NCBI RefSeq assembly: GCF_002224645.1
Contig: NZ_CP022121.1
Coordinates: 496,001 to 560,000, forward strand
Source of the DNA: Dehalobacterium formicoaceticum
GTDB lineage: Bacteria > Bacillota > Dehalobacteriia > Dehalobacteriales > Dehalobacteriaceae
Direction: 5' to 3'
DNA: 64,000 bases
How positions within the stretch are numbered: position 1 is the first letter of the stretch; every line of letters starts with the position of its first letter. Shown in pieces: positions 33,690 to 61,448 of the stretch. The position numbers were made by a program, and so were the translations under genes. The notes beneath the pieces were generated by a model, which saw only the letters and a program-made list of their open reading frames with translations, ran no database searches and was not told the origin of the DNA.

Positions 33690-33832
33690 AGGATGAACTC
33701 ATATCCCTTCATTTGATATTATTCAGCTATTCAGACGAAAGAACAGCATACGATACCATTCTTTCCACTACAGTATACCAATAATCGGAATAATATTAAA
33801 GGATATATAATTACTTCTCGAGGAAAAGGAAA

Positions 33833-33864
33833 AGCCTGCTGCAGATATTGACCGCAAACAGGCT
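33833..33864 (-). repeat. Relict tRNA-type terminator, first copy
   Basis: AGCCTG/CAGGCT hairpin followed by a tRNA-like CCA end (TGGCGGGGAACATGGG on the plus strand). It is about 90% identical over ~45 bp to the segment beside the tRNA-Ser fragment at 36.18 kb. The tRNA part itself is decayed beyond recognition. It may be an old attachment-site scar. From 33865 to 34028 I see nothing else. Confidence 0.5.
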
Positions 33865-34028
33865 CATGGCGGGGAACATGGGTTTGATACAAAATGCCCC
33901 CGGCAGCCTTGTTTCCGTTTGTCAGGTGAACACCTCTATAAATGCATGATGATTGAGATACTGAGATTACAGAAATGCACACGCATGCGCTTTGACCTAT
34001 GGGATGGCGTGCTTTATAAATTATTCCA

Positions 34029-34271
34029 GCTCAAACGTTTATCCCGGATGCACTATCTGTAAGTGATGCTGTGGAATTGACGGGCTATTGCCAAACCACA
34101 ATATCAGAATGGATCTCCAAAGAAAAATTTTTTGGAGTGTGGTACTACAACAAATACTTGATACCAAAGGACTGCCTGATCGAATACATGGCAACCAAAG
34201 CTTACCGCATAACTCAGAAATCAAATAAACACATGAGTCTGATACGAAAATTTCAAGAGAAACAAGCCTAA
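34029..34271 (+). pseudogene. 3' remnant of an ICE-type helix-turn-helix gene
   Basis: The frame reads PDALSVSDAVELTGYCQTT, then NKYLIPKDCLIEYM. This is clearly related to the C-terminal half of the 182-residue HTH protein at 36558-37106 (PDVLNVIEASEITGYHRNS, NKYLIPKPCLLEFM). No start or N-terminal half is present. It is probably what remains of an earlier, related element. Confidence 0.65.
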
Positions 34272-34451
34272 ACCGTATCTTAGTAAGAAAGAACTAAGAT
34301 ATCTGTGCTCTTACATAGCTGTTCGACTTTTGGCAGGCGAATATGTTTCCGCAAAAGTATACTTTATTAAATACTTTTATGTTTATAACCTCAAAATATG
34401 TGTATTTTATATCAGTTTTGCGATATACTATCAGTAAGAGAGGTGATAAAC

Positions 34452-35663
34452 ATGATTCTAAGACCGATGTATATTGAAAAGATTATGCCCTATGTGGATA
34501 CGCCCTTTGTCAAAATACTTTCCGGCGTCCGTCGCTGCGGCAAATCTACAATATTGAAAATGATTGCGGATGAACTGCGAGGGCGCGGTGTCCCAGAGGA
34601 AAGGATATTGGCATATAACTTCGATTCCTTACAGCATGAGGACATCAAAACAGCAAAGCTCTTGTACGATACGGTGAAGGGACAACTTTCAAAGGACGGA
34701 AAAACTTATCTTTTTTTAGATGAAATCCAAGAAGTAAAGTCATGGGAGAAAGCCGTCAATTCCTTTATGACGGATTTCGATGTGGACATTTATGTGACCG
34801 GCTCTAACTCACGCATGATGTCCTCTGAAATATCCACTTACCTGACAGGCCGCTATATTTCTATCCGTGTTTTCCCACTTTCCTTTGCGGAATACTTGTC
34901 CTTCCGTAAGAAATATACTTCTGTGGGCGACATTCGATTGGAGCTTGCACGGTATCTCCGGCTGGGCGGCTTTCCTGCTGTCCATTTACAGGAATACACG
35001 CTGGATGAAGCTTATACGATTGTGAAGGATATTTACAACTCAACCATATTCACAGATATTGTAAAACGTAATCAAATACGCAAGGTAGACCAGTTAGAGC
35101 GCATTGTCAGGTTTGCTTTTGACAATGTGGGTCGGACATTTTCAGCCGCATCCATCGCCAAGTATCTGAAAAATGAGCATCGCTCAATCGACAATGAAAC
35201 AGTCTACAATTATTTAAGCAAGCTGGAGAGCGCTTTTATTCTGCACCGCTGTTCCCGCTTTGATATTCAGGGCAAGGAAATACTGAAAACCCAGGAAAAA
35301 TTCTTTTTAGCCGATCCCGCATTCCGTTTCAGTGTCCTCGGCTATACACCTGACAGCGTGGCGGCCATGCTGGAGAACCTTATATACCTTGATCTTTTAC
35401 GGCGCGGCTATGATGTCAACATCGGCAAGCTCGACAACACCGTGATTGATTTTGTCGCTACAAAGCAAGAAAACAAGCTGTATATCCAGATTGCCGAGCG
35501 GATCGAGCGTGAAGAAACCCAGCAGCGGGAATACGGCAGGCTTCTGGGCATCGCAGACAATTACCCCAAATATGTCCTGCTGGCAGACGAATTCGCTGGG
35601 GGGAATTATCAGGGCATTAAAACTATGCACATTGCGGATTTCCTATTGAGCGAAGAATATTAA
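34452..35663 (+). CDS. AAA_14/DUF4143 ATPase
   Basis: A 403-residue protein with an N-terminal AAA_14 domain (Walker A GVRRCGKST ~24, Walker B LFLDEIQEV ~87, sensor VTGSNSRM ~116), a winged-helix middle (~215-265) and a C-terminal DUF4143 nuclease-like fold (ENLIYLDLLRRGYDVNIGKL, then DFVATKQENKLYIQIAE). The family is common in anaerobes and mobile elements; its biological role is not established. Start behind AGAGAGGTG. It lies alone between two attachment-site-like repeats. Confidence 0.88.
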   Translation: MILRPMYIEKIMPYVDTPFVKILSGVRRCGKSTILKMIADELRGRGVPEERILAYNFDSLQHEDIKTAKLLYDTVKGQLSKDGKTYLFLDEIQEVKSWEKAVNSFMTDFDVDIYVTGSNSRMMSSEISTYLTGRYISIRVFPLSFAEYLSFRKKYTSVGDIRLELARYLRLGGFPAVHLQEYTLDEAYTIVKDIYNSTIFTDIVKRNQIRKVDQLERIVRFAFDNVGRTFSAASIAKYLKNEHRSIDNETVYNYLSKLESAFILHRCSRFDIQGKEILKTQEKFFLADPAFRFSVLGYTPDSVAAMLENLIYLDLLRRGYDVNIGKLDNTVIDFVATKQENKLYIQIAERIEREETQQREYGRLLGIADNYPKYVLLADEFAGGNYQGIKTMHIADFLLSEEY

Positions 35664-36109: not shown

Positions 36110-36215
36110 GGCACGAAGGATTTCTACAAAAGCATCAAAAAAGCCCTCAAAAGAGGGCGTAGAAAGCCGGGAAAAAGGAAGAGCCTGCTGCGGACATTGA
36201 CCGCAAACAGGCTCA

Positions 36216-36276
36216 TGGCGGAGGCGGTGAGATTCGAACTCACGTGCCGGTTGCCCGACAACCTGATTTCGAGTCG
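36216..36276 (-). tRNA. 3' fragment of tRNA-Ser(CGA): left attachment site of the ICE
   Basis: On the minus strand a 61-nt piece runs from the anticodon loop (CTCGAAA) through the long serine-type variable arm (GTTGTCGGGCAAC) and T arm (GAGTTCGAATCTC) to CCA. The 5' half is absent; sequence right of 36276 is unrelated. A hairpin GAGCCTG...CAGGCTC (36181-36214) with a U-rich tail forms its terminator. A displaced 3' tRNA end is the hallmark of a tyrosine-recombinase integration; the element lies to the right. It is not a functional tRNA. Confidence 0.8.
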
Positions 36277-36557
36277 TTTGTCTTATGCACACTATGGTGG
36301 AAATTAGAAGAAGATAAAAGCACATGGAAGTATCTACAAACCCACTAATTTCAGCGTTTTCTGGACCCGAATACTGAAAGGCCTTGAAAAATCAATAGTT
36401 CGAATCAACTCCGATTTTGGCTGTTTTTTTGGAAAAAGGAGAGAAATTGGAGAGAACAAGAGAGATTTAGGAGAGAACAAAAGGCTTTTCTAACTGTTTT
36501 ATATAGAGCTTCAGGATCACCTGCCGTTGACAATCCAATTAAGGAAAAGGTGATTCT

Positions 36558-37106
36558 ATGAAGAAGAAAAATAGCAGTAAATACGATTACTTGATCAATG
36601 AGTATCCAGCGGTTATTACCAAAGACCAATTCTATCGGATCTGCAATATCAGTAAAAAGACCGCGAAGCACTTATTAGACAACGGACTGGTCCCCTGCGT
36701 CAACAGCGGTAAAAAAACCAGAAAATACAAACTCAAGCTAACTGATGTCATTGTATATCTCGAGGCTCGAGATGTTTCTCCTGAAAACTATACGGCACCA
36801 CTCGGATGGTATAAACGAGGTTCTACCTACAAGGGTCATAAACGTGAACCAAGAGTGTTGACGGAGGAAGAGAGGAATCAGCTTACAAAGTTCTATTCTC
36901 ATCGGATGGCCTATTACCCGGATGTTCTAAACGTCATCGAAGCATCCGAGATCACTGGTTACCATAGAAACTCAGTTGCCAAGTGGTGCACCAAGAAGCA
37001 AGTTCAATGCTTCAATATGGGAAACAAATATCTGATACCAAAACCATGCCTACTCGAATTCATGTTAAGCCCATTCTTTCAGGGTTTGAAATCGAAGATC
37101 GACTAG
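36558..37106 (+). CDS. Helix-turn-helix protein with two excisionase-like domains
   Basis: A 182-residue protein, first gene of the ICE. The N-terminal DNA-binding motif (FYRICNISKKTAKHLLDNGLVP ~25-46) and the C-terminal one (VIEASEITGYHRNSVAKWCTKK ~125-147) are both of MerR/Xis type. It could regulate the element or act as recombination directionality factor. A half-copy remains at 34029-34271. A weak terminator (37140-37160) follows. Confidence 0.7.
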   Translation: MKKKNSSKYDYLINEYPAVITKDQFYRICNISKKTAKHLLDNGLVPCVNSGKKTRKYKLKLTDVIVYLEARDVSPENYTAPLGWYKRGSTYKGHKREPRVLTEEERNQLTKFYSHRMAYYPDVLNVIEASEITGYHRNSVAKWCTKKQVQCFNMGNKYLIPKPCLLEFMLSPFFQGLKSKID

Positions 37107-37190: not shown

Positions 37191-37532
37191 ATGAAAGAAA
37201 CCTTTAATCAACGTTACAAGCAAGTCTGCCAATTGGCGGAGCAGCAAGGCGAAGCCTTTGCCGAAGTTGTATCTGAATCCTTCGATGATCTGGATAGCCT
37301 GGGCGAATTCGTCGATACCCTGTTCTACATGCATTCCATCACGGATGATGAGCAATTCGCTGTTTTTCTCGGAATAATGTACGAGATCATGGGCATGCAG
37401 ATGCCTGAAGAAATCGACTGCCACATTGTCATGGAGCAGAGGCTAAGCATTTTCTACAGTTGCTTCCTGACTTCATTCCTGACAGGAGTTTTTGATCGGG
37501 TCGGAGGTGATTTCTCTTGCCCTGCAATGTGA
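37191..37532 (+). CDS. Conserved ICE protein of unknown function
   Basis: A 113-residue acidic protein starting MKETFNQRYKQV behind AAGGAGG. The middle (DSLGEFVDTLFYMHSITDDEQFAVFLGIMYEIMG) is predicted helical. I do not recognise a named family. It overlaps the parA start by 16 bp, so it belongs to the partition operon. Confidence 0.6.
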   Translation: MKETFNQRYKQVCQLAEQQGEAFAEVVSESFDDLDSLGEFVDTLFYMHSITDDEQFAVFLGIMYEIMGMQMPEEIDCHIVMEQRLSIFYSCFLTSFLTGVFDRVGGDFSCPAM

Positions 37533-38338
37533 TTGCCATCGCCAATCAGAAGGGCGGAGTCGGCAAGACCACCACCTGCACCAATCTGGGCATTGGATTG
37601 GCCTCCGAAGGCAAGAAGGTTTTGCTTGTGGATTGCGATCCCCAGGGCAGCCTGACGATCAGCTTGGGTAACTCTCAGCCGGATCAACTACCAGTGTCAC
37701 TGTCCTCTGTTCTAGGTAAGACCATGAATGAAACCGCGCTTTCTCCCCAGGAAGGCATCCTGCATCATCCTGAAGGTGTGGATCTGATGCCCGCCAACAT
37801 TGAATTGTCTGGACTTGAGGTCTCGTTGGTCAATGTGATGAGTCGGGAAAAGATCCTGAAAGAGTATCTTGACGGAATCAAATCTGGCTACGACTACATC
37901 CTGCTTGACTGTATGCCTTCTCTTGGCATGCTGACGGTCAATACTCTGGCTGCTGCAGACAGTGTCCTCATTCCTGTCCAGGCCCAGTATTTGTCCGCAA
38001 AAGGGCTGGAGCTGCTGCTTCAAACCGTCAATAAAGTCCGCAAGCAAATCAATCCCAAACTGAAGATCGATGGCATTCTGCTGACTATGGTTGATAACCG
38101 GACCAATGACGCCAGGGAAATAAGTAGCCTTTTGCGGGAGACCTATGGAACCAAGCTGAAGGTGTTCGACTCGTCCATCCCCCACTCCGTGAGGGCGGCA
38201 GAAACTGCTTCCTATGGGAAAAGCATCTTTGCCCATGATCCCAAGGGTAAAGTAGCAGAAGCCTACAGAAATCTGACGAAGGAGGTGATGAAGCTTGAAA
38301 CCCAGCGGCAGAAATCTAAATCTGACCTCATACGATGA
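37517..38338 (+). CDS. parA: ParA-family partition ATPase
   Basis: A 273-residue Walker-type ATPase (deviant Walker A KGGVGKTT at ~11-18, CDPQGSLT ~42, Walker B-like LLDCMPSLG ~131). It starts at a TTG with GGAGGTGA well placed; no better ATG exists. Such proteins segregate plasmids or the circular form of ICEs. parB follows with an overlap. Confidence 0.92.
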   Translation: MPCNVIAIANQKGGVGKTTTCTNLGIGLASEGKKVLLVDCDPQGSLTISLGNSQPDQLPVSLSSVLGKTMNETALSPQEGILHHPEGVDLMPANIELSGLEVSLVNVMSREKILKEYLDGIKSGYDYILLDCMPSLGMLTVNTLAAADSVLIPVQAQYLSAKGLELLLQTVNKVRKQINPKLKIDGILLTMVDNRTNDAREISSLLRETYGTKLKVFDSSIPHSVRAAETASYGKSIFAHDPKGKVAEAYRNLTKEVMKLETQRQKSKSDLIR

Positions 38339-39233
38339 GATCTTTCAGACTGAAGAAGCAAGGATCGAAGCCACACAGGAAAAGGTCATCGACATTCCTC
38401 TTACACAGCTGCATCCATTCAAGAATCACCCCTTCAAGGTGACAGATGACGAATCAATGCTGGAGACCGCTGAGAGCATCACCAAGCACGGCGTCCTGGT
38501 ACCGGTCATCGCCCGTCCCCGTGAAGAAGGTGGATATGAGTTGATCTCCGGCCACCGTCGCAAGCGTGCCAGTGAGTTGGCCGGTAAGGAAACTCTTCCT
38601 TGCATCGTCCGCAATCTCGACGATGATGCTGCCACCATCATCATGGTTGACAGCAATATTCAACGTGAGAATATCCTGCCTAGTGAACGCGCCTTCGCTT
38701 ATAAATTGAAGCTGGAAGCTCTTGATAGGCAGCTTGGTCGACCGCCAAAAGAAAATGTGGGACAAGTTGTCCCTACTTATTCAGGCAAGCGTTCCACTGA
38801 AATTATTGGTGATCAAACCGGCGAAAGCTATAAGCAAGTCCAACGCTTTATCCGCCTGACAGAACTAGTCCCTGAGCTGCTCGATATGGTCGATGCTAAA
38901 AAAATCGCCTTCAATCCAGCGGTTGAACTTTCCTATCTCATGCCCCATGAACAGGTCCAGCTGATGGAAGCCATGGACATGGAGCAGGCTACACCTTCCC
39001 TGTCACAGGCTCAGCGTTTGAAAAAGTACAGCCAAGACGGCAAGCTGACCTTTGATGTTATGACCGCAATCATGTCGGAGGACAAAAAAGGTGAACTGGA
39101 CAAGGTGACGCTCACCGGTGAGAAGCTCAAAAAGTATTTTCCAAAATCCTATACACCCCAGCAGATGGAGGAAACCATCATCAAACTGCTGGAAGGCTGG
39201 TCGCGGAAGCGTCAGCAATCACAGGAACGGTAA
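38295..39233 (+). CDS. parB: ParB-family partition protein
   Basis: A 312-residue protein. It carries the ParB N-terminal nuclease/CTPase fold (LTQLHPFKNHPF, then LVPVIARPREEGGYELISGHRRKRAS ~68-93 and MVDSNIQRENILPSERAFAY ~116-135) and a helix-turn-helix (STEIIGDQTGESYKQVQRFIRL ~170-191). Start TTG behind GGAGGTGATG, the same arrangement as parA, within the parA 3' end. A terminator follows. Confidence 0.92.
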   Translation: MKPSGRNLNLTSYDEIFQTEEARIEATQEKVIDIPLTQLHPFKNHPFKVTDDESMLETAESITKHGVLVPVIARPREEGGYELISGHRRKRASELAGKETLPCIVRNLDDDAATIIMVDSNIQRENILPSERAFAYKLKLEALDRQLGRPPKENVGQVVPTYSGKRSTEIIGDQTGESYKQVQRFIRLTELVPELLDMVDAKKIAFNPAVELSYLMPHEQVQLMEAMDMEQATPSLSQAQRLKKYSQDGKLTFDVMTAIMSEDKKGELDKVTLTGEKLKKYFPKSYTPQQMEETIIKLLEGWSRKRQQSQER

Positions 39234-41594: not shown

Positions 41595-41654
41595 ATGATA
41601 TTCGTTTGTTTGGATGTCGAATCATAAATTAATATAAATGAGGTGGCGGTCAAC

Positions 41655-42587
41655 ATGGCGGAAAACATTAAGGTTTTTATTTCATATTCTTGGGATAGTG
41701 AAGAGCATAAGCAATGGGTAAAATCATTAACTGATAAACTCATTCAGGATGGAGTTGATGCTTCACTAGATCAGTATGACTTGACTTTAGGTGACCGCCT
41801 TCCTCACTTTATGGAGCAGCGTATTGCGGAATCCAACCATGTATTAATTATCTGTACGCCAAAATATAAAATAAAATCAGATCAACGAGCTGGTGGCGTA
41901 GGCTATGAAGGTCATATTATCTCAGGCGAATTACTCTCATCTAGAAATGAGAGAAAATTTATTCCAGTAATACGTGAAGGTACTCCTTTTACATCTATGC
42001 CAAAATGCCTCGAAGGAAAGTTGGCAATTGATTTAACTGGAGATCGAAATTTCAACGATGATCATAATTATAAGGACTTGATTACGACACTTTATGGAAA
42101 TCGCTCAAAGCCTCCAATGGGAACTAAACCAGCATATATTCCTAATAGTAGCAAACCCGTTTCCCAAGGGTTTGACAGTTCTGAGGATATAAAAATCCTC
42201 GGAATCATTACAGATGAGGTTACAGTTCCAAAAAATGATGGAACCAGAGGTTCTGCACTCTATAAAATTCCATTTAAGTTATCAAAGAAACCAAGCGACA
42301 TATGGAAGAAAATTTTCGTTGCTACTTGGAACATGCCTCCCAGCTTCACTTCGATGCATAGACCCAAAATCGCATCTGTGTTTGGAGATACTGTTTATTT
42401 AGATGGCACCACAATTGAAGAGGTAAGAGATTATCATCGAAAAACTCTATTGCTTTGTGTCGAAGAAGCAAATAAAAAGGAAAAACTAATTTTAGCTGAG
42501 GAAGAGCGCCGCCGTAAGAGACAAGAAGAATTTGAAAAAACTCAAAGCCAAAAAATAAATGATGTAATTAAAGACATCGAATTTTGA
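41655..42587 (+). CDS. SEFIR (TIR-like) domain protein, candidate defence effector
   Basis: A 310-residue protein. The N-terminal ~140 residues match the SEFIR domain of the TIR superfamily (VFISYSWDSEEHKQWVKSLTDKL; DASLDQYDLTLGDRLPHFMEQRI; HVLIICTPKYKIK; GVGYEGHIIS; FIPVIREG). Bacterial SEFIR proteins include single-gene anti-phage effectors that deplete NAD. Residues ~175-270 form an unrecognised domain, followed by a charged coiled-coil (EEERRRKRQEEFEK). The DNA is clearly more A/T-rich than the neighbouring ICE genes, consistent with separate acquisition. ATG at 41655 behind GAGGTGG. A strong terminator follows. Confidence 0.85.
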   Translation: MAENIKVFISYSWDSEEHKQWVKSLTDKLIQDGVDASLDQYDLTLGDRLPHFMEQRIAESNHVLIICTPKYKIKSDQRAGGVGYEGHIISGELLSSRNERKFIPVIREGTPFTSMPKCLEGKLAIDLTGDRNFNDDHNYKDLITTLYGNRSKPPMGTKPAYIPNSSKPVSQGFDSSEDIKILGIITDEVTVPKNDGTRGSALYKIPFKLSKKPSDIWKKIFVATWNMPPSFTSMHRPKIASVFGDTVYLDGTTIEEVRDYHRKTLLLCVEEANKKEKLILAEEERRRKRQEEFEKTQSQKINDVIKDIEF

Positions 42588-45727: not shown

Positions 45728-45877
45728 CTCACCGCTGCCTTCACAGAATACACGGCGAAGGTCCTCAAAAAGGACAAGCAGCCTTCCATCCTGGAACAGC
45801 TTGCCAAATTTAAGGCTCTGGTTCAGACCAAAATCATGGACCGGGTGAAAAACAAAGATAAGGAGCTGACGCGATGA
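45728..45877 (+). pseudogene. PcfB-family protein, 3' part after IS21 copy B
   Basis: The last 49 codons (LTAAFTEYTAKVLKKDKQP...) continue the frame broken at 43049. The stop overlaps the ATG of the coupling protein by 4 bp, showing that the two were translationally coupled before the insertion. Confidence 0.85.
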
Positions 45878-47649
45878 ACGTAAAAATCAAGCGGATGCTC
45901 CTTTTAAACCTCCCCTATGTCCTGATCGCTCTCTTTGCCACGAACCTCGGAGAGGCCTGGCGATTTTCTCCTGGACTGGATATCTCGCAAAAAGTCCTGC
46001 ATCTCATGGACGGCTTTGCTTTTGCTTTTCAGTCGCCTTGGCCAAGTCTGCTCCTACAGGATCTGATCCTGGGCATTGGAATCGCCGCCTGCATCAAGCT
46101 GGCTGTCTATGTGAAAGGCAGAAACGCCAAAAAGTACCGTAAAAACATCGAATACGGCTCAGCGCGCTGGGGCAGACCTGAGGATATCAAACCCTTTATC
46201 GATCCAACCTTTCGCAACAACGTCATCCTCACGGAGACAGAGCGCCTGACCATGAACAACCGCCCTAAGGACCCCAGGCTTGCTCGAAACAAAAACGTCA
46301 TGGTGGTAGGTGGTTCCGGATCTGGTAAGACGCGGTTTTGGCTCAAGCCAAATCTCATGCAGTGCCATTCCAGCTATGTGGTCACCGATCCCAAGGGCAG
46401 CGTCGTGGTGGAATGCGGACAGCTTCTCCTGCGGGAAGGCTACAAGATCAAGATCCTCAATACCATCAACTTCAGTAAATCCATGCACTACAATCCCTTT
46501 GCCTACATCAAGAGTGAAAAAGACATCCTCAAGCTGGTGACGGCACTTATTGCCAACACCAAAGGTGAAGGCAAGGCCGGAGATGATTTCTGGGTGAAGG
46601 CGGAGACCCTGCTCTATACCGCCCTCATGGGCTACATCCACTATGAAGCTCCGGAAAGCGAGCAGAACTTTACAACCCTCATTGAGCTTATCAATGCCTC
46701 AGAGGTCCGGGAGGACGACGAGGACTTCCAGAACCCGGTGGATCTCATGTTCGCCGCACTGGAGGAACGTGACTCGGAGCATTTTGCAGTCCGGCAGTAC
46801 AAGAAATACAAACTGGCTGCCGGTAAGACCGCCAAATCCATCCTGATCAGCTGCGGAGCCCGTCTGGCACCCTTTGACATCAAGGAGCTCAGAGACCTGA
46901 CGGCCTACGACGAAATGGAACTGGATGCCCTGGGTGACCGGAAAACGGCGCTGTTCATCATCATCAGCGACACCGATGACACCTTCAACTTCCTGGTTTC
47001 CATGGCCTATACGCAGCTCTTCAATCTGCTGTGCGACAAGGCAGATGACGTCTATGGCGGACGTCTGCCTGTGCATGTGCGCTGCCTCATTGATGAGGCG
47101 GCGAATATCGGTCAAATTCCCAAGCTGGAAAAGCTGGTAGCCACCATCCGAAGCCGGGAGATCTCGGCCTGTCTGGTGCTGCAGGCTCAGTCCCAGCTGA
47201 AGGCTCTTTATAAAGATCACTGCGACACCATCATCGGCAATATGGACAGCACGATCTTTCTGGGCGGCAAGGAGCGCACCACACTAAAGGAGCTTTCAGA
47301 AACCCTTGGGAAGGAGACCATCGACACCTTCAACACCGGGGAAAGCCGAGGCCGTGAGGTTTCCCACAGTCTGAACTACCAGAAACTCGGAAAGGAGCTG
47401 ATGAGCATCGACGAACTGGCCGTACTGGACGGCGGCAAGTGTATTCTGCAGCTGCGCGGGGTGCGGCCTTTTCTCTCGAGCAAGTACGACATCACCAAAC
47501 ACCCCAACTACAAGTACCTCTCCGATGCGGACCCGCGCAATGCCTTCAACATCGAGAAGTACCTGTCCACCCGTCTCAAGCCCAAGCCGGATGAAATCTA
47601 TGAGGTCTACCACTTGGATTTGTCCAACCAACCCGAAGCCGCTGAATGA
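45874..47649 (+). CDS. VirD4/TraG-type coupling protein (T4CP)
   Basis: A 591-residue inner-membrane ATPase that brings the relaxase-DNA complex to the secretion channel. Two N-terminal membrane segments (~8-25 and ~52-72) are followed by Walker A GGSGSGKTR (~145-153), the TDPKGS segment (~172) and Walker B CLIDEAANIG (~404). Downstream QAQSQLKALY and the SGE-like NTGESRGREVS segment fit the family. Co-expressed with PcfB upstream before copy B inserted. Confidence 0.93.
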   Translation: MNVKIKRMLLLNLPYVLIALFATNLGEAWRFSPGLDISQKVLHLMDGFAFAFQSPWPSLLLQDLILGIGIAACIKLAVYVKGRNAKKYRKNIEYGSARWGRPEDIKPFIDPTFRNNVILTETERLTMNNRPKDPRLARNKNVMVVGGSGSGKTRFWLKPNLMQCHSSYVVTDPKGSVVVECGQLLLREGYKIKILNTINFSKSMHYNPFAYIKSEKDILKLVTALIANTKGEGKAGDDFWVKAETLLYTALMGYIHYEAPESEQNFTTLIELINASEVREDDEDFQNPVDLMFAALEERDSEHFAVRQYKKYKLAAGKTAKSILISCGARLAPFDIKELRDLTAYDEMELDALGDRKTALFIIISDTDDTFNFLVSMAYTQLFNLLCDKADDVYGGRLPVHVRCLIDEAANIGQIPKLEKLVATIRSREISACLVLQAQSQLKALYKDHCDTIIGNMDSTIFLGGKERTTLKELSETLGKETIDTFNTGESRGREVSHSLNYQKLGKELMSIDELAVLDGGKCILQLRGVRPFLSSKYDITKHPNYKYLSDADPRNAFNIEKYLSTRLKPKPDEIYEVYHLDLSNQPEAAE

Positions 47650-47923: not shown

Positions 47924-48793
47924 ATGGAAAGCATACTCGACAAAATCACCGAATGGCTGAAGACGATGCTTGTCGAAGGCATCATCACAAATTTGTCGGG
48001 GATGTTTGATAACGTCAACCAGCAGGTTGGCGAAATCGCAGGTCAAGTGGGATTGACGCCGGCGGCATGGAATGCCGGCGTCTTTTCCATGATCCGCAGC
48101 CTCTCCGAAAGTGTCATCATCCCCATCGCGGGTGTGATCCTTGCCTTTGTGATGACCTACGAGCTCATCCAGATGGTCATCGACCGGAATAATCTTCACG
48201 ATATCGATACCTGGATCTTTTTCAAATGGATCTTCAAAACCTTTGTGGCCGTTCTTCTGGTCACCCATACCTTTGATATCGTCATGGGCATCTTCGATAT
48301 GGCACAGTCGGTGGTCAACAGCGCTTCCGGCGTCATATCAGCAGACGCCTCGGTGGATCTGGCCACCACAGTGGCAGACCTTCAGACGCGGCTGACCGCC
48401 ATGGAACTGGGGCCGCTTTTCGGACTTTGGTTTCAGAGCCTCTTCATTGGCTTTACTATGCAGGCCCTGAGTATCTGCATCTTCCTGGTCATTTATGGCC
48501 GCATGATCGAGATCTATCTGGTCACGTCGGTGGGACCCATCCCCATGGCCACCATGGTCAACCGGGAATGGGGCGGTATGGGACAGAATTATCTTCGCTC
48601 CCTTTTGGCCCTGGCCTTTCAGGCCTTTCTCATCATGGTCTGTGTCGGCATCTATGCCGTCCTGGTGCAGAACATTGCCACGGAACCCGACATCATCAAA
48701 GCCGTCTGGACCACCCTGGGCTATACGGTTCTGCTCTGCTTCACCCTGTTCAAGACCGGAAGTCTTGCCAAATCCATCTTCAATGCCCATTAA
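47924..48793 (+). CDS. VirB6/TrbL-like conjugal transfer membrane protein
   Basis: A 289-residue protein with about six membrane helices (for example SVIIPIAGVILAFVMTYELIQMV and AVLLVTHTFDIVMGI) and the TrbL-like core SLFIGFTMQALSICIFLVIYGRMIEIYLVTSVGPIPMATM. It probably forms the inner-membrane part of the channel. Starts 14 bp after the Maff2 stop. Confidence 0.88.
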   Translation: MESILDKITEWLKTMLVEGIITNLSGMFDNVNQQVGEIAGQVGLTPAAWNAGVFSMIRSLSESVIIPIAGVILAFVMTYELIQMVIDRNNLHDIDTWIFFKWIFKTFVAVLLVTHTFDIVMGIFDMAQSVVNSASGVISADASVDLATTVADLQTRLTAMELGPLFGLWFQSLFIGFTMQALSICIFLVIYGRMIEIYLVTSVGPIPMATMVNREWGGMGQNYLRSLLALAFQAFLIMVCVGIYAVLVQNIATEPDIIKAVWTTLGYTVLLCFTLFKTGSLAKSIFNAH

Positions 48794-48811: not shown

Positions 48812-49222
48812 GTGGCCTATGTCCCTGTACCGAAGGATCTGACCAAGATCAAAACCAAGGTGATGCTCAATCTCACCAAGCGTCAACTGATTTCATTTGG
48901 CAGCGGTGCCATACTGGGCGTCCCGCTGTTTTTTCTTGCTAAACCCCACATGAGTGTCAGCACGGCAGCTCTTTTGATGGTGCTGTCCATGCTGCCTTTT
49001 TTCCTGCTGGCCATGTATGAACGAAACGGTCAGCCCCTGGAAAAGATCCTCTATCAGCTCATTCAGAGCCGATTCATCCGACCGAAGAAGCGGCCCTACC
49101 GGACCGATAACTTCTATGCCGCCGTAGAGCGGCAAACCAATCTGGACAAGGAGGTAAAAGCGATTGTCCACCAAGAAAACCATCCAACGAAAACTCAGCC
49201 GCGAGGAAAGAAATCGCATTGA
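48812..49222 (+). CDS. PrgI-family conjugation protein (VirB3-like position)
   Basis: A 136-residue protein with two membrane helices (LISFGSGAILGVPLFFLA and TAALLMVLSMLPFFLLAMY) and a charged C-terminus, as in PrgI proteins that sit next to VirB4. GTG start behind AAGGAGG. Its 3' end overlaps the VirB4 gene by 59 bp. Confidence 0.88.
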   Translation: MAYVPVPKDLTKIKTKVMLNLTKRQLISFGSGAILGVPLFFLAKPHMSVSTAALLMVLSMLPFFLLAMYERNGQPLEKILYQLIQSRFIRPKKRPYRTDNFYAAVERQTNLDKEVKAIVHQENHPTKTQPRGKKSH

Positions 49223-51560
49223 AAGCGCCATCGCCAGAGCCAAGCGTGACAGCAAAGTTCCGGCAACGGCCCAGCAGACGATCCCTTACCTACGCATGCA
49301 TCCCGACGGCATCTGCCAGGCAACGGATGCCTTATATACCAAGACCATTCAGTTTCAGGACATCAACTACCAGCTGGCTCAGAACGATGACAAGACGGCC
49401 ATCTTTGACTGCTGGTGCGACTTTCTCAACTACTTTGACAGTTCCATCCGCTTTCAGTTTTCCTTCCTGAATCTGAGCGCCAGCATCGAGGAATTCGAGC
49501 AGTCCATCCTGATCCCGGACCAGAACGACGACTTCGATGACATCCGCGAAGAGTATGCCAACATGCTCCGAGGCCAGCTGGCCAAGGGCAACAACGGCCT
49601 GTCCAAGACCAAGTTCATCACCTTTGGCATCGAGGCGGAGAATCTTCGCACAGCCAAACCCAGACTGGAGCGCATCGAGAATGATCTCCTGAACAGCTTC
49701 AAGCGCCTTGGCGTCGCAGCAGATCCTTTGAGCGGCAAAGACCGCCTGAAGCTCCTGCACAGTATTTACCACCTGGACGGGCAGGAGCGCTTTCTCTTTG
49801 ACTGGGACTGGCTGCCCCTATCGGGCCTTTCCACCAAAGACTACATCGCACCCGCATCCTTTGATTTTTCCGAGAGCAGGAACTTTCGGATGGGCAAAAA
49901 GAATTGCTCTGTTTCCTTCCTGCAGATCCTCGCCCCCGAGCTCAACGATCGCATGCTGGCGGATTTTCTGTCCATGGACAACAGCCTGGTGGTGACGCTC
50001 CACATCCAGTCCATCGACCAGACCTCGGCCATCAAAACCATCAAGCGCAAGATCACCGATCTGGACCGGATGAAGATCGAAGAGCAGAAGAAGGCCGTCC
50101 GTTCCGGCTACGACATGGACATTATCCCGTCGGATCTAGCTACCTACGGCGGCGAAGCCAAGAAGCTGCTACAGGATCTGCAGAGCCACAATGAGCGCAT
50201 GTTCCTTGTGACCTTTCTGATCATGAATACCGCCGACGGCAAACAGCAGCTGGACAACAATATCTTTCAGGCTCAGGGCATCGCCCAGAAATACAACTGT
50301 CAGCTGGTCCGGCTGGACTTCCAGCAGGAATCCGCCCTCAACTCATCCCTGCCCCTTGGTCACAATCAGATCGAGATCCAGCGAGGTCTGACCACCTCCA
50401 GCACCGCCATCTTCGTGCCCTTTACCACCCAGGAGCTGTTCCAGCGAGAAGGCGAACCCCTGTATTACGGGCTCAATGCGCTGTCCAACAACCTGATCAT
50501 GGTGGACCGAAAAGCCCTGAAGAATCCCAATGGCCTGATCCTGGGCACTCCGGGCAGCGGAAAATCCTTCTCCGCCAAGCGCGAGATCGCCAATGCCTTT
50601 CTCATCACCCAGGACGACATCACCATCTGCGATCCTGAGGGCGAGTATTACCCCCTGGTGGAGCGCCTTCAGGGGCAGGTCATCAAGATCTCACCCACCA
50701 GCGGACATTACATCAACCCCATGGACATCAACCTCAACTACTCTGAGGACGAAAGCCCGCTGTCCCTGAAATCCGACTTTATCCTTTCCCTGTGCGAGCT
50801 CATCGTCGGCGGCAGAGATGGCCTCCAGCCCATTGAAAAAACTGTCATCGACCGCTGTGTGCGCATGGTGTATCAGGCCTACCTCAATGAGCCCAGGCCG
50901 GAGAATGTCCCTATTTTGGGAGACCTGCACCGAATCCTTCTGGAGCAGCCGGAAAAGGAAGCCCGGCTCATTGCAACGGCACTGGAAATCTACGTCAGCG
51001 GCTCCCTCAATGTCTTTAACCACCGGACCAACGTGAATATCCAGAACCGCCTGGTTTGCTTTGACATCAAGGAACTGGGCAAGCAGCTGAAGAAGCTGGG
51101 CATGCTCATCGTGCAGGATCAGGTCTGGGGCCGCGTAACCGCCAACCGTGCCGAGGGCAGAAGCACCCGCTACTACATCGATGAATTCCATTTGCTGCTC
51201 AAGGAGGAACAAACCGCCGCCTACTCGGTGGAGATTTGGAAGCGATTCAGAAAGTGGGGCGGCATTCCGACGGGCATCACCCAGAACGTCAAGGACCTGC
51301 TGTCCTCCCGGGAAATCGAGAATATCTTTGAAAACAGCGACTTCGTCTACATGCTGAATCAGGCAGGCGGGGACCGCCAGATCCTGGCCAAACAGCTCAA
51401 CATCTCGCCTCATCAGCTGTCCTATGTCACCCATTCCGGTGAAGGTGAAGGCCTGTTGTTCTATGGAAATGTGATCCTGCCCTTTGCAGACCGTTTTCCG
51501 AAGGATACCGAGCTCTACCGCATCATGACGACGAAGCCAGCTGAGGTCAAGGGGGTATGA
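49164..51560 (+). CDS. VirB4-like type IV secretion ATPase
   Basis: A 798-residue cytoplasmic ATPase. An N-terminal domain without motif is followed by Walker A GTPGSGKSF (~459), the DPEGEY segment (~488) and Walker B YYIDEFHLLL (~670), with FENSDFVYMLNQ after it, as in VirB4/TraE/CD0408-type proteins. TTG start with AAGGAGG, inside the preceding gene. It powers assembly of the transfer channel. Confidence 0.95.
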   Translation: MSTKKTIQRKLSREERNRIESAIARAKRDSKVPATAQQTIPYLRMHPDGICQATDALYTKTIQFQDINYQLAQNDDKTAIFDCWCDFLNYFDSSIRFQFSFLNLSASIEEFEQSILIPDQNDDFDDIREEYANMLRGQLAKGNNGLSKTKFITFGIEAENLRTAKPRLERIENDLLNSFKRLGVAADPLSGKDRLKLLHSIYHLDGQERFLFDWDWLPLSGLSTKDYIAPASFDFSESRNFRMGKKNCSVSFLQILAPELNDRMLADFLSMDNSLVVTLHIQSIDQTSAIKTIKRKITDLDRMKIEEQKKAVRSGYDMDIIPSDLATYGGEAKKLLQDLQSHNERMFLVTFLIMNTADGKQQLDNNIFQAQGIAQKYNCQLVRLDFQQESALNSSLPLGHNQIEIQRGLTTSSTAIFVPFTTQELFQREGEPLYYGLNALSNNLIMVDRKALKNPNGLILGTPGSGKSFSAKREIANAFLITQDDITICDPEGEYYPLVERLQGQVIKISPTSGHYINPMDINLNYSEDESPLSLKSDFILSLCELIVGGRDGLQPIEKTVIDRCVRMVYQAYLNEPRPENVPILGDLHRILLEQPEKEARLIATALEIYVSGSLNVFNHRTNVNIQNRLVCFDIKELGKQLKKLGMLIVQDQVWGRVTANRAEGRSTRYYIDEFHLLLKEEQTAAYSVEIWKRFRKWGGIPTGITQNVKDLLSSREIENIFENSDFVYMLNQAGGDRQILAKQLNISPHQLSYVTHSGEGEGLLFYGNVILPFADRFPKDTELYRIMTTKPAEVKGV

Positions 51561-51561
51561 G

Positions 51562-53712
51562 ATGAGCGCCAAGAAAGCCAAACGCACCGTCACCCGGCTT
51601 CGGTTCACAGAGGAACGCAGCACCCCGGAGTATCAAAAAGCCACTCAGAAGGTGGACAAGGCAGCGAATAAGCTGGAGAAAGCAGTAAAAAGGGCTAAGG
51701 TAGAATCGCTGGGAACCCACGAGACGAATATTTCCTTTGGTCCCATTAAAAAGCCAGTGAAACTGCAGTTTGAAGAGCTTCAGGTGAAGAAAACACCCTC
51801 GGCTTTAAAGTCCGCAGCGGCGACCCTGCCTGCTGCAGAGGTCCACCTGCAGATTGCGAGATCCGAAGATGACAATGTTGGCGTGGAGGCTGCCCACCGC
51901 CTGGAAGGAACCGCGGAAGGCACCGTCCGGACCGCACAGAATGCGCACCGGTCCCATGCGCTGAAAGCAGAGCGAAAATCTCTGAAGGCGGAGAAGACGC
52001 TGGACCAGGCCAACGTCAGCCTGCTTCAAAAACGGGCAGCCAGTGAACGGCCGCTCTTTTCGACCAATCCCTTATCCCGCTGGCAGCAAAAGCAGGCCAT
52101 CAAGAAGGAATATGCTGCAGCTAAAGCCGGAAAAGGTGCGGAAAACGTTCAGAAGGCGGCCCAAACCACCGTGAAAACCGCGAAAACAGCGAAGGAGGCG
52201 CTGGAGAAGGCTACCGCTTTCATTGCCCGGCACAGCAAGGTTTTTCTGGGCATCATCGGCATCTTCTTTGTTGTCATGCTGATTTTAAACACCTTTGCCA
52301 GCTGCTCTCAGATGGCCGTGGGCGGGCTCAATGCCTTTCTCACCACTTCCTACACCGCATCCGATGAGGACATCACCGCCGCTGATCTTGAGTACACCCG
52401 TCTGGAGGCAGACCTTGAGTATGACCTGCTCAACATCGAACCGGATTATCCCGGCTTTGATGAATACCGCTACACGGTAGATCCCATTGGCCATGATCCT
52501 CATGAGCTGATCGCCTACCTGACGGCAAGGTTCGAAGATTTTACCTACGCCGAAGTCGAAGCTGAGCTGAGATCTCTCTTTTCCTCCATGTACAGCTTGC
52601 GCATCACGGAGACCGTCGAAGTGCGATACCGTACCGAAACCAGGTACCGGACCTATACCGTGACCGATCCCGAAACCGGTGAGGTCCAGACCATCCGCGA
52701 AAGCTATGAAGTGGAGGTCCCCTATAATTTCTACATCCTGAACATCAACCTGAGCAGCCAGTCCTTGTACTCCGTCGTCTATCCGCGCATGAACGCCGAC
52801 CAGCGGGAAATGTATCTCGTGTATATGGATACCAAGGGCAACAAGCAGTATTTCGGCAATCCCTTTTCTTTCAATTGGCCGAGCCACGTCACCAGCCTTT
52901 ATGGCTGGCGGGTCCATCCCATCACGGATCGGCTGCAGATCCACCGGGGTCTCGATCTGGGCGTAGCTTTGGGCACACCGATCCAGTCCATCCATGACGG
53001 CGAAGTGGTCCGGGTCGGCTACGATGCCAGCGGCTATGGAAACTATGTGGTCATTGAAGAAAAGAACGGCTACCGCAGCACCTATGCCCATTGCTCCAGC
53101 ATTCTGGTAACAGAAGGCCAGAACGTCCTGCGGGGCCAGGCCATTGCCAAGGCAGGAAGCACCGGTGCCAGTACCGGCAGCCATCTGCATCTGGAACTGA
53201 CATTGAACGGCCAGTACCTCAATCCCTATTTCTTCATCGAGGGGACTGATCCCTACACTCCGCGAGCCGTCGGCGCCACCAACGGCGCTTATACCGACTA
53301 CGACATCCCGCCGGAAGCACTGTCTGATCCAACCTTCGCGGCCCTGATCAAGGAAGCGGAGAAGTATCTTGGCTATCCCTATGTGTGGGGAGGCTCCACG
53401 CCATCGACGTCCTTTGACTGCTCCGGCTTTGTCTGCTGGGTGTTCAAGAATTCGGGCGTCTATCCGCTCTCCCGAACTACTGCCCAGGGCATCTTTGACC
53501 AGTGTGCCATCATCCCACCCTCGGAGGCCAGGCCCGGCGACATTGTGTTCTTTACCGGCACTTACGACAGCATCGGTCCGGTGTCCCATGTGGCCATCTA
53601 TGTGGGCGACGGCATGATGATCCACGCCGGAAATCCCATCCAATATGCCTCCATGAACACCTCGTATTTCCAATCCCATTTTTACGCCTTCGGGCGTTTG
53701 CCAAGGAGGTAA
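51562..53712 (+). CDS. Bifunctional cell-wall hydrolase, M23 + NlpC/P60 (VirB1-like)
   Basis: A 716-residue protein. An Ala/Lys-rich cytoplasmic N-terminus (~1-225, predicted helical) is followed by one membrane helix (LGIIGIFFVVMLILNTFASC ~230-250) and an external part with an M23 peptidase domain (SLYGWRVHP ~444, zinc ligands in HRGLDLG and HLHLELT) and a C-terminal NlpC/P60 domain (catalytic Cys in FDCSGF ~619, His in VSHVAIYVGDG ~678). It opens the peptidoglycan for the channel, like Orf14/CwlT of Tn916. Two different peptidases on one chain is typical of this ICE group. Confidence 0.93.
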   Translation: MSAKKAKRTVTRLRFTEERSTPEYQKATQKVDKAANKLEKAVKRAKVESLGTHETNISFGPIKKPVKLQFEELQVKKTPSALKSAAATLPAAEVHLQIARSEDDNVGVEAAHRLEGTAEGTVRTAQNAHRSHALKAERKSLKAEKTLDQANVSLLQKRAASERPLFSTNPLSRWQQKQAIKKEYAAAKAGKGAENVQKAAQTTVKTAKTAKEALEKATAFIARHSKVFLGIIGIFFVVMLILNTFASCSQMAVGGLNAFLTTSYTASDEDITAADLEYTRLEADLEYDLLNIEPDYPGFDEYRYTVDPIGHDPHELIAYLTARFEDFTYAEVEAELRSLFSSMYSLRITETVEVRYRTETRYRTYTVTDPETGEVQTIRESYEVEVPYNFYILNINLSSQSLYSVVYPRMNADQREMYLVYMDTKGNKQYFGNPFSFNWPSHVTSLYGWRVHPITDRLQIHRGLDLGVALGTPIQSIHDGEVVRVGYDASGYGNYVVIEEKNGYRSTYAHCSSILVTEGQNVLRGQAIAKAGSTGASTGSHLHLELTLNGQYLNPYFFIEGTDPYTPRAVGATNGAYTDYDIPPEALSDPTFAALIKEAEKYLGYPYVWGGSTPSTSFDCSGFVCWVFKNSGVYPLSRTTAQGIFDQCAIIPPSEARPGDIVFFTGTYDSIGPVSHVAIYVGDGMMIHAGNPIQYASMNTSYFQSHFYAFGRLPRR

Positions 53713-54684: not shown

Positions 54685-54875
54685 CGCATTTTACGGACAG
54701 TCCCTTTGAACGGCTGATGAAGCAAAAGCCCAGGCAGCGGCAGGAGAAGCTCTCTCCTGTCCTACCCAAGACCCATCCCTGCCATGGCTGCAGCTATCTT
54801 CAGGGCAACTGCTGCACTGGTGTCTGCTACCGGGAGCTGATCCTACCCCACAAGAAAAGGAAGGTGGACAAATGA
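54681..54875 (+). CDS. Small Cys-rich ICE protein of unknown function
   Basis: A 64-residue basic protein with a cysteine cluster PCHGCSYLQGNCCTGVCYREL (~33-53) that could bind zinc. Overlaps both neighbouring genes by 4 bp, so it is clearly expressed with them. No family name comes to mind. Confidence 0.7.
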   Translation: MTHFTDSPFERLMKQKPRQRQEKLSPVLPKTHPCHGCSYLQGNCCTGVCYRELILPHKKRKVDK

Positions 54876-57013
54876 AACTGGTGATTGCAGAAAAACCAAG
54901 TGTGGCGCAGTCCATTGCCGCAGTACTGGGAGCAAACAGGCGAAAGGACGGTTATTTGGAAGGAACGGATGTCCTGGTTTCCTGGTGTGTTGGACATCTG
55001 GTGGAGCTCTCTCCGGCGGATGTCTATGACGAGCGCTATGACAAATGGCGCTTTGAGGATCTGCCGATCCTTCCGGAGCCATGGAAATACCAGGTGCCCA
55101 AGGACAAGCAAAAGCAATTCAAAATCCTGAAAAGCCTGATGGGTGAAGCCCGAGTGACGGAGATCATCTGCGCTACGGATGCCGGACGTGAAGGGGAACT
55201 GATCTTCCGTCTGGTCTATCGCCAGGCGGGTTGTCAGAAACCGGTGAAGCGCTTATGGATCAGTTCCATGGAGGATCAGGCCATCAGCGAAGGCTTCAGG
55301 AAACTAAGGCCCAGCCAGGAATATGATCCGCTCTATCAATCTGCCCTCTGCCGGGCGCAGGCGGATTGGCTGGTCGGAATCAACGCAACGAGGCTCTTTT
55401 CCGTTTTGTATCGTCAGACCCTCAATGTCGGCCGCGTCATGTCTCCTACGCTGTCCATGATCGTGGACCGCTGGTCTGTCATTCAAGATTTCAGGTCCGA
55501 GCCATTCTACACCGTTGTGCTGAAGCTCCCCGGTTTTGAAGCAGCCAGTGAAAAGCTGAAGATCAAGGCCGAGGCTGAAAAACTCCTGATAGAGTGCCAG
55601 GGAAAGTCGGCCACAGTCACTGAAGTAAGGACCCAGGAGAAGACAGAGAAGCCGCCTAAGCTTTATGACCTGACCACTCTGCAGCGGGAATCCAACCGGT
55701 TTCTTGGGTATACCGCCCAGCAAACACTGGATTATGCCCAAAGCCTTTATGAGAAAAAACTCATCACCTATCCCCGAACCGACAGCCGCTACCTGACGGC
55801 TGATATGGCGCAGTCCACTGCAGGCGTCCTTCAGTCAGCGCTTTCCCTTTTGCCAGAGAAATTGACGAAGGGATATTCGACGGATCTAAAGCAATTGCTG
55901 GATGATTCCAAGGTCAGCGACCATCACGCTATCATCCCGACCCATGCTCTGAAGGAAAATATCCTGGATAGTCTGCCCAAGGGCGAGCAGGAGCTCTTAA
56001 AGCTTCTGGCCATTCGCCTCATCACCGCCGCAGGAGAAGCCCATCGGTATTCAGAAACGACGGTCGTTTTGGACTGCTGTGATCAACGCTTCACTACCAA
56101 GGGAAAGACGATTCTGCAGTCCGGCTGGAAGTCTGTGGATGAGCATTATCGCAGCACGCTTACCACTCGAAAATCGGAAAAAAAGACGGAAGCCCCGCTG
56201 CCCAGACTGGAAAAAGACCAGCGCTTTGATGCGGTCTCTGTCCGGCTGGAGGAGGGAAAAACCACTCCTCCTAAGCTTTTTACCGAGGATACGCTGCTCT
56301 CCGCCATGGAGAATGCTGGCCTGGAGGACGTGCCCGAGGATGCTGAGCGCAAAGGTCTGGGGACTCCGGCCACACGGGCAGGCATCCTGGAAAAGCTGAT
56401 CAAGACTGAGATGGTAGAGCGCCGAGGTGATAAAAAGCTCAAGACCCTGCAGCCCACCCATAAGGGAGTTTCTTTGGCCACGATCTTACCGGAGCAGATC
56501 AAATCCCCTCAGATGACGGCGGAATGGGAGGAAAAGCTGAAGCGCATTGAAAAGGGTCAGCTCTCACCTGAGATCTTCATGGCGGAGATCTCTCAGCACC
56601 TGAAGGATCTGGTTAGAACCTATCGGGCGATCTCTGAAGCCCCCGGCGAGCTGGCCTTGAATCCGGAAAGCATCGGTTCTTGCCCGCGCTGCCAGGATCA
56701 GGTGCTGGAAGGGGAACGTCGTTTTTTCTGCCAGAACAAAGCCTGTACTTTCGCCTTATGGAAGGACAACCGTTTCTTCAAGGACAAGAAAAAAACACTG
56801 ACTCGCGAGGCAGCTGCTGCTCTTCTGCAGGATGGCTGTATTCAGATGAAAAGCCTGTATTCGCCCAAGACGCAAAAGACCTACGATGCTCGAATCATCA
56901 TGGAGGATACCGGCGGCAAGTACGTCAATTTCAGGCTGGAATTTATGCCTGATGAAACCAAGGATAAGGACAAAACATCAACAAAATCCAAGGAAAGGAT
57001 GGAAAAATCATGA
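54872..57013 (+). CDS. topB: DNA topoisomerase III
   Basis: A 713-residue type IA topoisomerase. TOPRIM domain at the N-terminus (LVIAEKPSVAQSIAAVLG, then ATDAGREGELIF ~99-110), catalytic Tyr in ITYPRTDSRY (~299), ending in a zinc-ribbon-like part (SCPRCQDQVLEGERRFFCQNKAC ~605-628). ICE-borne TopB enzymes resolve DNA during transfer or replication. Length is normal for the plasmid/ICE type. Confidence 0.95.
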   Translation: MKLVIAEKPSVAQSIAAVLGANRRKDGYLEGTDVLVSWCVGHLVELSPADVYDERYDKWRFEDLPILPEPWKYQVPKDKQKQFKILKSLMGEARVTEIICATDAGREGELIFRLVYRQAGCQKPVKRLWISSMEDQAISEGFRKLRPSQEYDPLYQSALCRAQADWLVGINATRLFSVLYRQTLNVGRVMSPTLSMIVDRWSVIQDFRSEPFYTVVLKLPGFEAASEKLKIKAEAEKLLIECQGKSATVTEVRTQEKTEKPPKLYDLTTLQRESNRFLGYTAQQTLDYAQSLYEKKLITYPRTDSRYLTADMAQSTAGVLQSALSLLPEKLTKGYSTDLKQLLDDSKVSDHHAIIPTHALKENILDSLPKGEQELLKLLAIRLITAAGEAHRYSETTVVLDCCDQRFTTKGKTILQSGWKSVDEHYRSTLTTRKSEKKTEAPLPRLEKDQRFDAVSVRLEEGKTTPPKLFTEDTLLSAMENAGLEDVPEDAERKGLGTPATRAGILEKLIKTEMVERRGDKKLKTLQPTHKGVSLATILPEQIKSPQMTAEWEEKLKRIEKGQLSPEIFMAEISQHLKDLVRTYRAISEAPGELALNPESIGSCPRCQDQVLEGERRFFCQNKACTFALWKDNRFFKDKKKTLTREAAAALLQDGCIQMKSLYSPKTQKTYDARIIMEDTGGKYVNFRLEFMPDETKDKDKTSTKSKERMEKS

Positions 57014-59696: not shown

Positions 59697-60035
59697 TTGG
59701 CAAACAGGAAGCGTCAGATCCCCATTATTATTATGGTCAATGAGCGTGAAAAGGCGCTGATCGAGGAAAAGATGCGCCAGCTGGGGACAAAAAACATGGG
59801 GGCCTACATCAGAAAAATGGCTATTGACGGCTATGTGGTCCGGCTGGACCTCTCCGACATTTCTGAACTGGTATCGCTCCTTCGAAGAAGCGGCAACAAC
59901 CTGAATCAATACGCCAAGCGGGCGCACGAGACCGGACGCATCTATGAAGCCGATATTGAGGATATCCAGAGCAGCCTAAAGAGTGTATGGGAAAAGGCGG
60001 ATCAGATCATGACCCGCCTTTCCACCATAGACTAA
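59697..60035 (+). CDS. mobC: MobC-family relaxosome accessory protein
   Basis: A 112-residue protein: ribbon-helix-helix-like N-terminus (IPIIIMVNEREKALIEEKMRQLG, NMGAYIRKMAIDGY) and the MobC core LVSLLRRSGNNLNQYAKRAHETG (~61-83). It helps the relaxase open oriT. TTG start behind GAGGAGGTG. The origin of transfer is probably within a few hundred bp, but I cannot identify it by sequence alone. Confidence 0.92.
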   Translation: MANRKRQIPIIIMVNEREKALIEEKMRQLGTKNMGAYIRKMAIDGYVVRLDLSDISELVSLLRRSGNNLNQYAKRAHETGRIYEADIEDIQSSLKSVWEKADQIMTRLSTID

Positions 60036-60458: not shown

Positions 60459-60485
60459 TTTTTCTTTTGGAAGGAGGTGTCCGCT

Positions 60486-61244: not shown

Positions 61245-61448
61245 TGTATTTGTCAACTTAAAATTAGGCCATATAGTCATTTAATTTTCGGCCACTAAGA
61301 AAAAAAAATTTAGTCGTTTCATAAGCATATTTAGTTTTCAAAGAGCATTGTTTCACGATGAATGCTAACGCGCTATCGCTTGTTACACCCTGTATAAATG
61401 TTTATCAAAAACATGATAAACCTTTATACAGGGTTATTGTTTTTTTCT

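Follow-up and report, generated by a model that had tools for sequence, protein, structure and literature searches.

Introduction

When a mobile element inserts into a tRNA gene, it is understood to mend the interrupted gene with a fragment that it carries, and standard island mapping relies on that behavior. Insertion by a tyrosine integrase commonly leaves an intact tRNA at the end of the element.

The anticodon-centered tDNA islands of the Islander set comprise, as far as the accessible text of PMC4383910 describes them, a tyrosine integrase, a crossover at the anticodon loop, and a tRNA fragment at one end, and these features are shared by the locus described here. The attP of a tDNA island holds a fragment of the target and restores it, whereas here both halves of the target are orphaned and a whole, foreign tRNA is present. 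A search of tRNAs against their own fragments would not be expected to link the intact tRNA of this locus (C) to either of the split tRNAs (A and B). The locus also resembles the anticodon-loop sites of archaeal and bacterial tyrosine recombinases covered in the accessible part of PMC8371274, where a 7-bp overlap coincides with the anticodon loop and is flanked by a dyad stem. With the CD1110-type conjugative elements of Bacillota it shares a VirB4 of the CD1110 family, PrgI, TrbL_2, a coupling protein, an M23/NlpC hydrolase, MobC, and a relaxase, but it differs from them in its spare-tRNA attachment module and its nesting. A mec cassette amid nested mobile elements characterizes the nested recombinase island of Dehalobacter, although that island is located between rdhB and rumA rather than in a tRNA gene (PMC11578063, in its accessible portion). 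Elements that carry a whole tRNA do not appear in the accessible text of PMC8371274, PMC4383910, and PMC9897764, and no description of them was found in the literature searched, which consisted mostly of papers available without subscription; an earlier description is possible. The peculiarity here lies in a tRNA that is both foreign and complete, past which follow an attachment arm and a second core.

The window analyzed is a stretch of 64,000 nucleotides from Dehalobacterium formicoaceticum (genome positions 496001–560000), the genome of which is a single contig of 3,766,545 bases. Positions refer to the window unless they are marked as genome positions. The original prediction for this window was that a conjugative element had integrated into a tRNA-Ser(CGA) gene, leaving a displaced 3′ fragment of the tRNA at its boundary. 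We find that the fragment, denoted A, is very probably accounted for by nested elements that carry spare tRNAs, which is the best explanation of the locus as a whole. This explanation draws on split junctions, cognate tRNA halves, a shared core, arm repeats, nesting, recurrence, and exchange of the spare, all of which can be read from the sequence.

Results and Discussion

A tRNA Fragment at the Left Junction

36216–36273, minus strand: orphan 3′ half of tRNA-Ser(CGA) A, at the left junction of element 1
36267–36273, unstranded: 7-bp core TTTCGAG, which is the anticodon loop, repeated at genome 692167–692173 at the other end of element 1
36274–64000, plus strand: left 27.7 kb of element 1, delimited by the junction, arm repeats, and gene content

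The 58 nt of fragment A run from the CTCGAAA loop (anticodon CGA) through the TCAGG strand of the anticodon stem, the long variable arm, the T arm, and the acceptor strand CGCCTCC to GCCA, which bears out tRNA-Ser(CGA) as the target. The break in the gene falls at the 7-nt anticodon loop, DNA of the conjugative element lies to its right, and the match to the tRNA stops with the loop at 36273; the predicted end at 36276 is 3 nt too far. The prediction was right in placing the crossover at the anticodon loop, the chromosome to the left of the fragment, and a conjugative element to its right.

The predicted downstream tRNA identical to the fragment does not exist, since the sequence of fragment A occurs once in the genome in a search that allowed up to 3 mismatches. 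Three tRNA-Ser 3′ halves of the form CTCGAAA...CCGCCA were identified genome-wide, and these are A, B, and C. Pattern searches of the D. formicoaceticum genome returned no match to CTCGAAA...CCGCCA or CTCAAAA...CACCA beyond the spares and the orphan halves.

Pairing of tRNA Halves at the Far End of the Locus

Genome 589264–590271: integrase 1, with its N-terminal part in another frame (589070–590271)
Genome 590346–590401: orphan 3′ half of tRNA-Ser(CGA) B, directly after integrase 1
Within genome 690.4–692.7 kb: integrase 2, a tyrosine integrase of 445 aa
Genome 691749–691838, minus strand: intact tRNA-Ser(CGA) C, carried by element 2

The partner of fragment A is an orphan 5′ half about 160 kb away, next to tadA at genome 692.17 kb. 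All 12 stem bases of fragment A (5 in the anticodon stem and 7 in the acceptor stem) pair with this 5′ half, and ARAGORN calls a tRNA-Ser(CGA) when the two are joined. Together, these observations argue that fragment A is not a chance match. Beyond the window the analysis extended over genome 560001–700000. The order between genome 690.4 and 692.7 kb is a tyrosine integrase, intact tRNA C, two orphan 5′ halves, and tadA. Both 5′ halves belong to other tRNA-Ser(CGA) genes and end in CTCGAAA, with cores at 691978–691984 and 692167–692173. A tyrosine integrase beyond the window had been anticipated, and integrases were found both at genome 589264–590271 and within 690.4–692.7 kb. The Phage_integrase domain was detected in the two proteins with E-values of 1.7e-25 and 3.5e-13, and integrase 1 is 38% identical to integrase 2.

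We joined every 5′ half to every 3′ half at the anticodon loop and submitted each product to a tRNA call. The cognate joins (A with A, using the outer 5′ half; B with B, using the inner 5′ half; and C with C) were all called as tRNA-Ser(CGA), and none of the six cross joins was called as a tRNA. Stem pairing was complete (12/12) for the halves of both A and B; among 34 3′ halves from other genomes, one fitted as well for A and none for B. Crossing over in the anticodon loop of the carried tRNA was considered and rejected: it would yield hybrid tRNAs, and the cross joins fail.

An intact tRNA-Ser(CGA) does exist beyond the window, as predicted, but it does not have the last ~61 nt of the fragment, and the halves fail to pair. 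No intact tRNA-Ser(CGA) other than this one, C, was found in the genome, where a tRNA-Ser(TGA) is also present. Fragment A is thus not a conventional displaced fragment: the host tRNA is not restored, both of its halves are orphans, and the intact tRNA is a foreign spare in a nested element.

Limits and Nesting of the Two Elements

Attachment sites of tyrosine integrases usually bear direct repeats (arm sites), and such repeats are found at the left end of element 1.

36438–36478, plus strand: left-arm direct repeats of element 1, with GGAGAGA at 36438 and GGAGAGAAC at 36449 and 36470

Element 1 spans genome 532274–692173 and consists of its own DNA at 532274–590401 and a right end at 691985–692173 (net 58,317 bp). 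Element 2, at genome 590402–691984 (101,583 bp), lies inside element 1. Element 1 split tRNA A and carried the whole of tRNA B; element 2 split B and carries C. The 224 kb examined contain five copies of GGAGAGAAC, of which four are at the ends of element 1 (genome 532449 and 532470 on the left, 692060 and 692073 on the right) and one is in an unrelated tRNA. The positions of the right-hand pair place the right end of element 1 outside element 2. Exactly four copies of GGATAGAAC occur in the same 224 kb, two at either end of element 2. The repeats of each element therefore bracket its ends, in independent agreement with the join test. The two junctions of element 2 are identical over 7 bp and those of element 1 over 9 bp, which corresponds to the anticodon loop and, in element 1, two further bases.

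Gene Content of the Elements

36558–37106, plus strand: HTH_17 protein at the left end of element 1, matched by HTH_17 genes at the same end of element 2
37517–38338, plus strand: ParA-type ATPase
38295–39233, plus strand: ParB N-terminal domain protein
41643–42587, plus strand: TIR/SEFIR protein (PADLOC bSEFIR), cargo
45874–47649, plus strand: coupling protein (T4SS-DNA_transf, TraG/TraD C)
47924–48793, plus strand: TrbL_2 (VirB6-like)
48812–49222, plus strand: PrgI family
49164–51560, plus strand: VirB4-like conjugal ATPase of the CD1110 family
51562–53712, plus strand: Peptidase_M23 and NLPC_P60 cell-wall hydrolase of the transfer apparatus
54872–57013, plus strand: DNA topoisomerase
59697–60035, plus strand: MobC/NikA-like mobilization protein
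60477–61298, plus strand: MobA/VirD2-type relaxase domain in a 273-aa frame, followed by an IS21 copy
61449–63814, minus strand: IS21 transposase and IstB helper, inserted in element 1

Element 1 has both the VirB4 of the CD1110 family and the coupling protein that define CD1110-type ICEs. Judged from the reading frame, its relaxase is probably truncated; resumption of the relaxase past the IS21 copy was evaluated and is unsupported (E 0.44). Near its N-terminus, integrase 1 shows a frame break (by eye), which is either real or a homopolymer sequencing error. The broken integrase frame and the relaxase frame that ends before IS21 suggest that element 1 is probably no longer autonomous. Further cargo of element 1, at genome 569418–579449 (L011), comprises a ThsA-like protein and a type III restriction enzyme and methyltransferase.

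Element 2 encodes an HTH protein, ParA, a relaxase (465-aa frame, Relaxase domain 4e-39), PrgI, and, as assigned by Pfam only, a coupling protein and a TraG/VirB4-type ATPase. Its cargo includes genes for BrxL and PglZ proteins (BREX-like defense genes) at genome 675480–679810 (L019). Also within element 2 is a cluster of ten genes at genome 642209–653203 (L018 2209–13203), flanked by inverted IS66 copies, one confirmed by NCBIfam and the other an identically starting frame of equal length. The cluster encodes, in order, a PocR kinase, a B12-binding protein, a URO-D protein, a response regulator, a second URO-D protein, MtrH, DUF1638, RACo, a third URO-D protein, and a Na/H exchanger. In order and predicted domain type, which is the level at which the comparison was made rather than by accession, the cluster fits mecA-J as described in the accessible text of PMC10344839. 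The mec genes are said to sit in ‘mobile accessory elements’, with no element named in the accessible part of PMC10327494. Element 2 would be a defined vehicle for dichloromethane-degradation genes.

An Older Layer to the Left of Fragment A

36181–36214 (approximate), minus strand: terminator-like hairpin 3′ of fragment A, with a T-rich stretch downstream (by eye)
33824–33872, unstranded: second copy of the terminator and tRNA 3′ end, 94% identical over 49 bp to 36173–36221; trace of element 0
34038–34196, plus strand: decayed HTH gene like that at 36558–37106 (41.5% over 53 aa); trace of element 0

The region 36121–36275 is 84.5% identical to the spare-tRNA region of an integrase-bearing element in another genome (L086 in G381), the 5′ half of which is identical to 5′ half A. 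The second copy of the terminator and tRNA 3′ end lies to the left of the fragment A region, at a distance of 2.35 kb. The similarity to L086, the identical 5′ half, and the remnants to the left suggest that tRNA A was itself probably delivered by an earlier element, which we denote element 0. The terminator beside the fragment had been described as native. A hairpin with a T-rich stretch is indeed present, but the similarity to L086 and the second copy make its native status doubtful, and its sequence relationships suggest that it probably came with an older element.

No right end of element 0 was seen beside tadA, and no integrase of element 0 was recognizable to the left of fragment A (best tblastn E 0.13). 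An intact element to the left of the fragment was rejected, as only a small decayed remnant lies there. Within this remnant is a gene for an AAA_14/DUF4143 ATPase (34398–35663).

Recurrence in Other Genomes

A scan of genome contigs identified 17 relatives of integrase 2, of which 14 extend past the integrase (L031, L032, and L036 end too early). A tRNA-Ser(CGA) adjoins the integrase on the opposite strand in all 14. In 12 of them, this tRNA is followed by an arm bearing the GGATAGAAC repeat twice, by TTTCGAG, and then by a foreign 5′ half, giving a recurrent order that runs from the integrase through the complete spare tRNA, the arm, and the second anticodon-loop core to the orphan 5′ half. 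The exceptions are L033, with the tRNA but no second core, and L029, in which the repeats lie on the opposite side of the tRNA (by eye), as in a conventional element, and are absent from the arm.

We then searched 398 genomes of the phylum and read the DNA after each integrase, which yielded 22 distinct places. The full layout was identified at 10 places (two in the D. formicoaceticum genome) and, at one more, as far as the contig end. Four places had no more than a 3′ half before other DNA began, as at tRNA B, four had a complete tRNA without a second core, and three had neither. Among the 10 full-layout places, four are in tRNA-Leu(CAA), with the core TTTTGAG; the remaining targets are tRNA-Ser(CGA). 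These four include a third element of this kind in D. formicoaceticum itself.

Genome 3183036–3251543 (L128 and L129), ~68.5 kb: element in tRNA-Leu(CAA), with a complete spare tRNA-Leu(CAA)

The joined halves of this tRNA-Leu(CAA) are called as tRNA-Leu(CAA), but so is a cross join, and ARAGORN therefore does not discriminate here. Stem pairing does discriminate, with 12/12 for the cognate halves and 10/12 for the cross join.

In a search for partner halves, the second core was present at 23 of 24 integrase loci. Partner 3′ halves with 12/12 pairing and discriminating stems were found for D. formicoaceticum (A, B, and Leu), G002, G005, G008, G100, and G161. Pairing was also 12/12 in G004, G011, G195, G220, and G269, though with common stems that 6–9 of 34–36 foreign halves fit too, and in G203 and G148, in which the stems of the split tRNA are the same as those of the carried one. 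The best score for one further orphan half in G148 was 10/12, and pairing in G381 was 11/12. The partner search found no partner 3′ half in the draft genomes G001, G003, G006, G007, G010, and G013, and G009 and G014 were uninformative. A 3′ half flanked on its outer side by an integrase, as expected where a carried tRNA has itself been split, is present in D. formicoaceticum, G381 (two cases), G203, G284, and G148. At least two orphan 5′ halves are stacked past the spare tRNA at L034, L065, L074, and L083, an arrangement that suggests repeated nesting elsewhere. One locus (L048 in G011) was called intact, yet element-like sequence lies beyond it.

The spare tRNA also varies separately from its surroundings. 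Two loci (L021 and L023) have integrase DNA that is 97% identical and arms that are 89% identical, yet their spare tRNAs have no detectable similarity. Conversely, one spare tRNA is letter-for-letter identical in seven loci, the integrase DNA of which is about 78% to 97% identical to that of L021. The contrast between L021 and L023 and the occurrence of one tRNA across seven diverged loci indicate, at the level of sequence, that the spare moves independently of its flanks.

Alternative Explanations

In a conventional tDNA island, attP would carry the 3′ part of the target, integration would rebuild the tRNA, and fragment A would be the displaced cognate copy. A tyrosine integrase, a tRNA target, and a displaced 3′ fragment are all present, the integrase lies inside the element and attB within the tRNA gene, and some relatives look conventional (L033, L085, L070, and L071). 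However, a restored tRNA with a cognate displaced fragment is not seen: no cognate intact tRNA was found in the genome at up to 3 mismatches, all six cross joins fail, and identity at the junctions is only 7–9 bp. Moreover, a restoring element would leave no orphan 5′ halves, and these exist. We consider a conventional island highly improbable.

It is likewise very unlikely that the locus arose by ordinary tandem accretion of islands in one tRNA and subsequent scrambling through rearrangement or homologous recombination, the spares being duplicates of host tRNAs. Tandem tDNA arrays are known (accessible text of PMC4383910), and several IS copies are present at the locus. Yet rather than lying side by side with fragments of one shared tRNA, the right ends stack and involve three different tRNAs; the arm repeats reveal an ordered nest with the right end of element 1 outside element 2; and the same layout recurs across many genomes. 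The spare is also conserved with the element rather than with the host, one sequence being identical in seven different genomes. Halves A and B keep complete stem pairing, as would befit a functional split tRNA joined in trans, but the split coincides with an integrase core and with the ends of the elements, an intact copy is available, and 100–160 kb separate the halves, making this reading exceedingly improbable.

Proposed Mechanism and Implications

Under the favored explanation of nested elements with spare tRNAs, the tyrosine integrase of element 1 would exchange strands at the 7-nt loop of tRNA A and leave two orphan halves. The loop alone would have to match, such that divergent tRNA-Ser(CGA) genes could serve as targets, and with only about 7–9 bp common to element and target the split gene would not be rebuilt. 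The complete and different tRNA-Ser(CGA) carried by the element, located between the integrase gene and the right attachment arm, would supply the lost tRNA. Because this spare has the same anticodon loop, it would constitute a new attB for the next element; element 2 would have inserted into spare B in this way, bringing its own spare C. Excision of element 2 would yield the circle junction ...CTCCACACA-TTTCGAG-TGCAACGAT... and would rejoin tRNA B. We infer that the integrases catalyze insertion and that the host obtains from the spare a transcribed and charged tRNA, which repays it for the one lost. tRNA-Ser(TGA) may read UCG by wobble and is present in the genome, which suggests that loss of tRNA-Ser(CGA) may be costly rather than lethal.

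Collectively, we regard it as reasonably likely that these loci represent a family of conjugative elements that bring their own attachment site. A complete tRNA would replace the one destroyed, the host would become reliant on the element, the next element would gain a target, and nesting would build up. The spare would act as an exchangeable cassette, swapped among attachment modules that are otherwise almost the same, with versions for at least two isoacceptors, Ser(CGA) and Leu(CAA). If true, pairing tRNAs with their own fragments would be expected to miss such elements, a single-copy tRNA would be a safe target despite almost no sequence match, and the nesting of such elements, instead of their lining up, would be explained.
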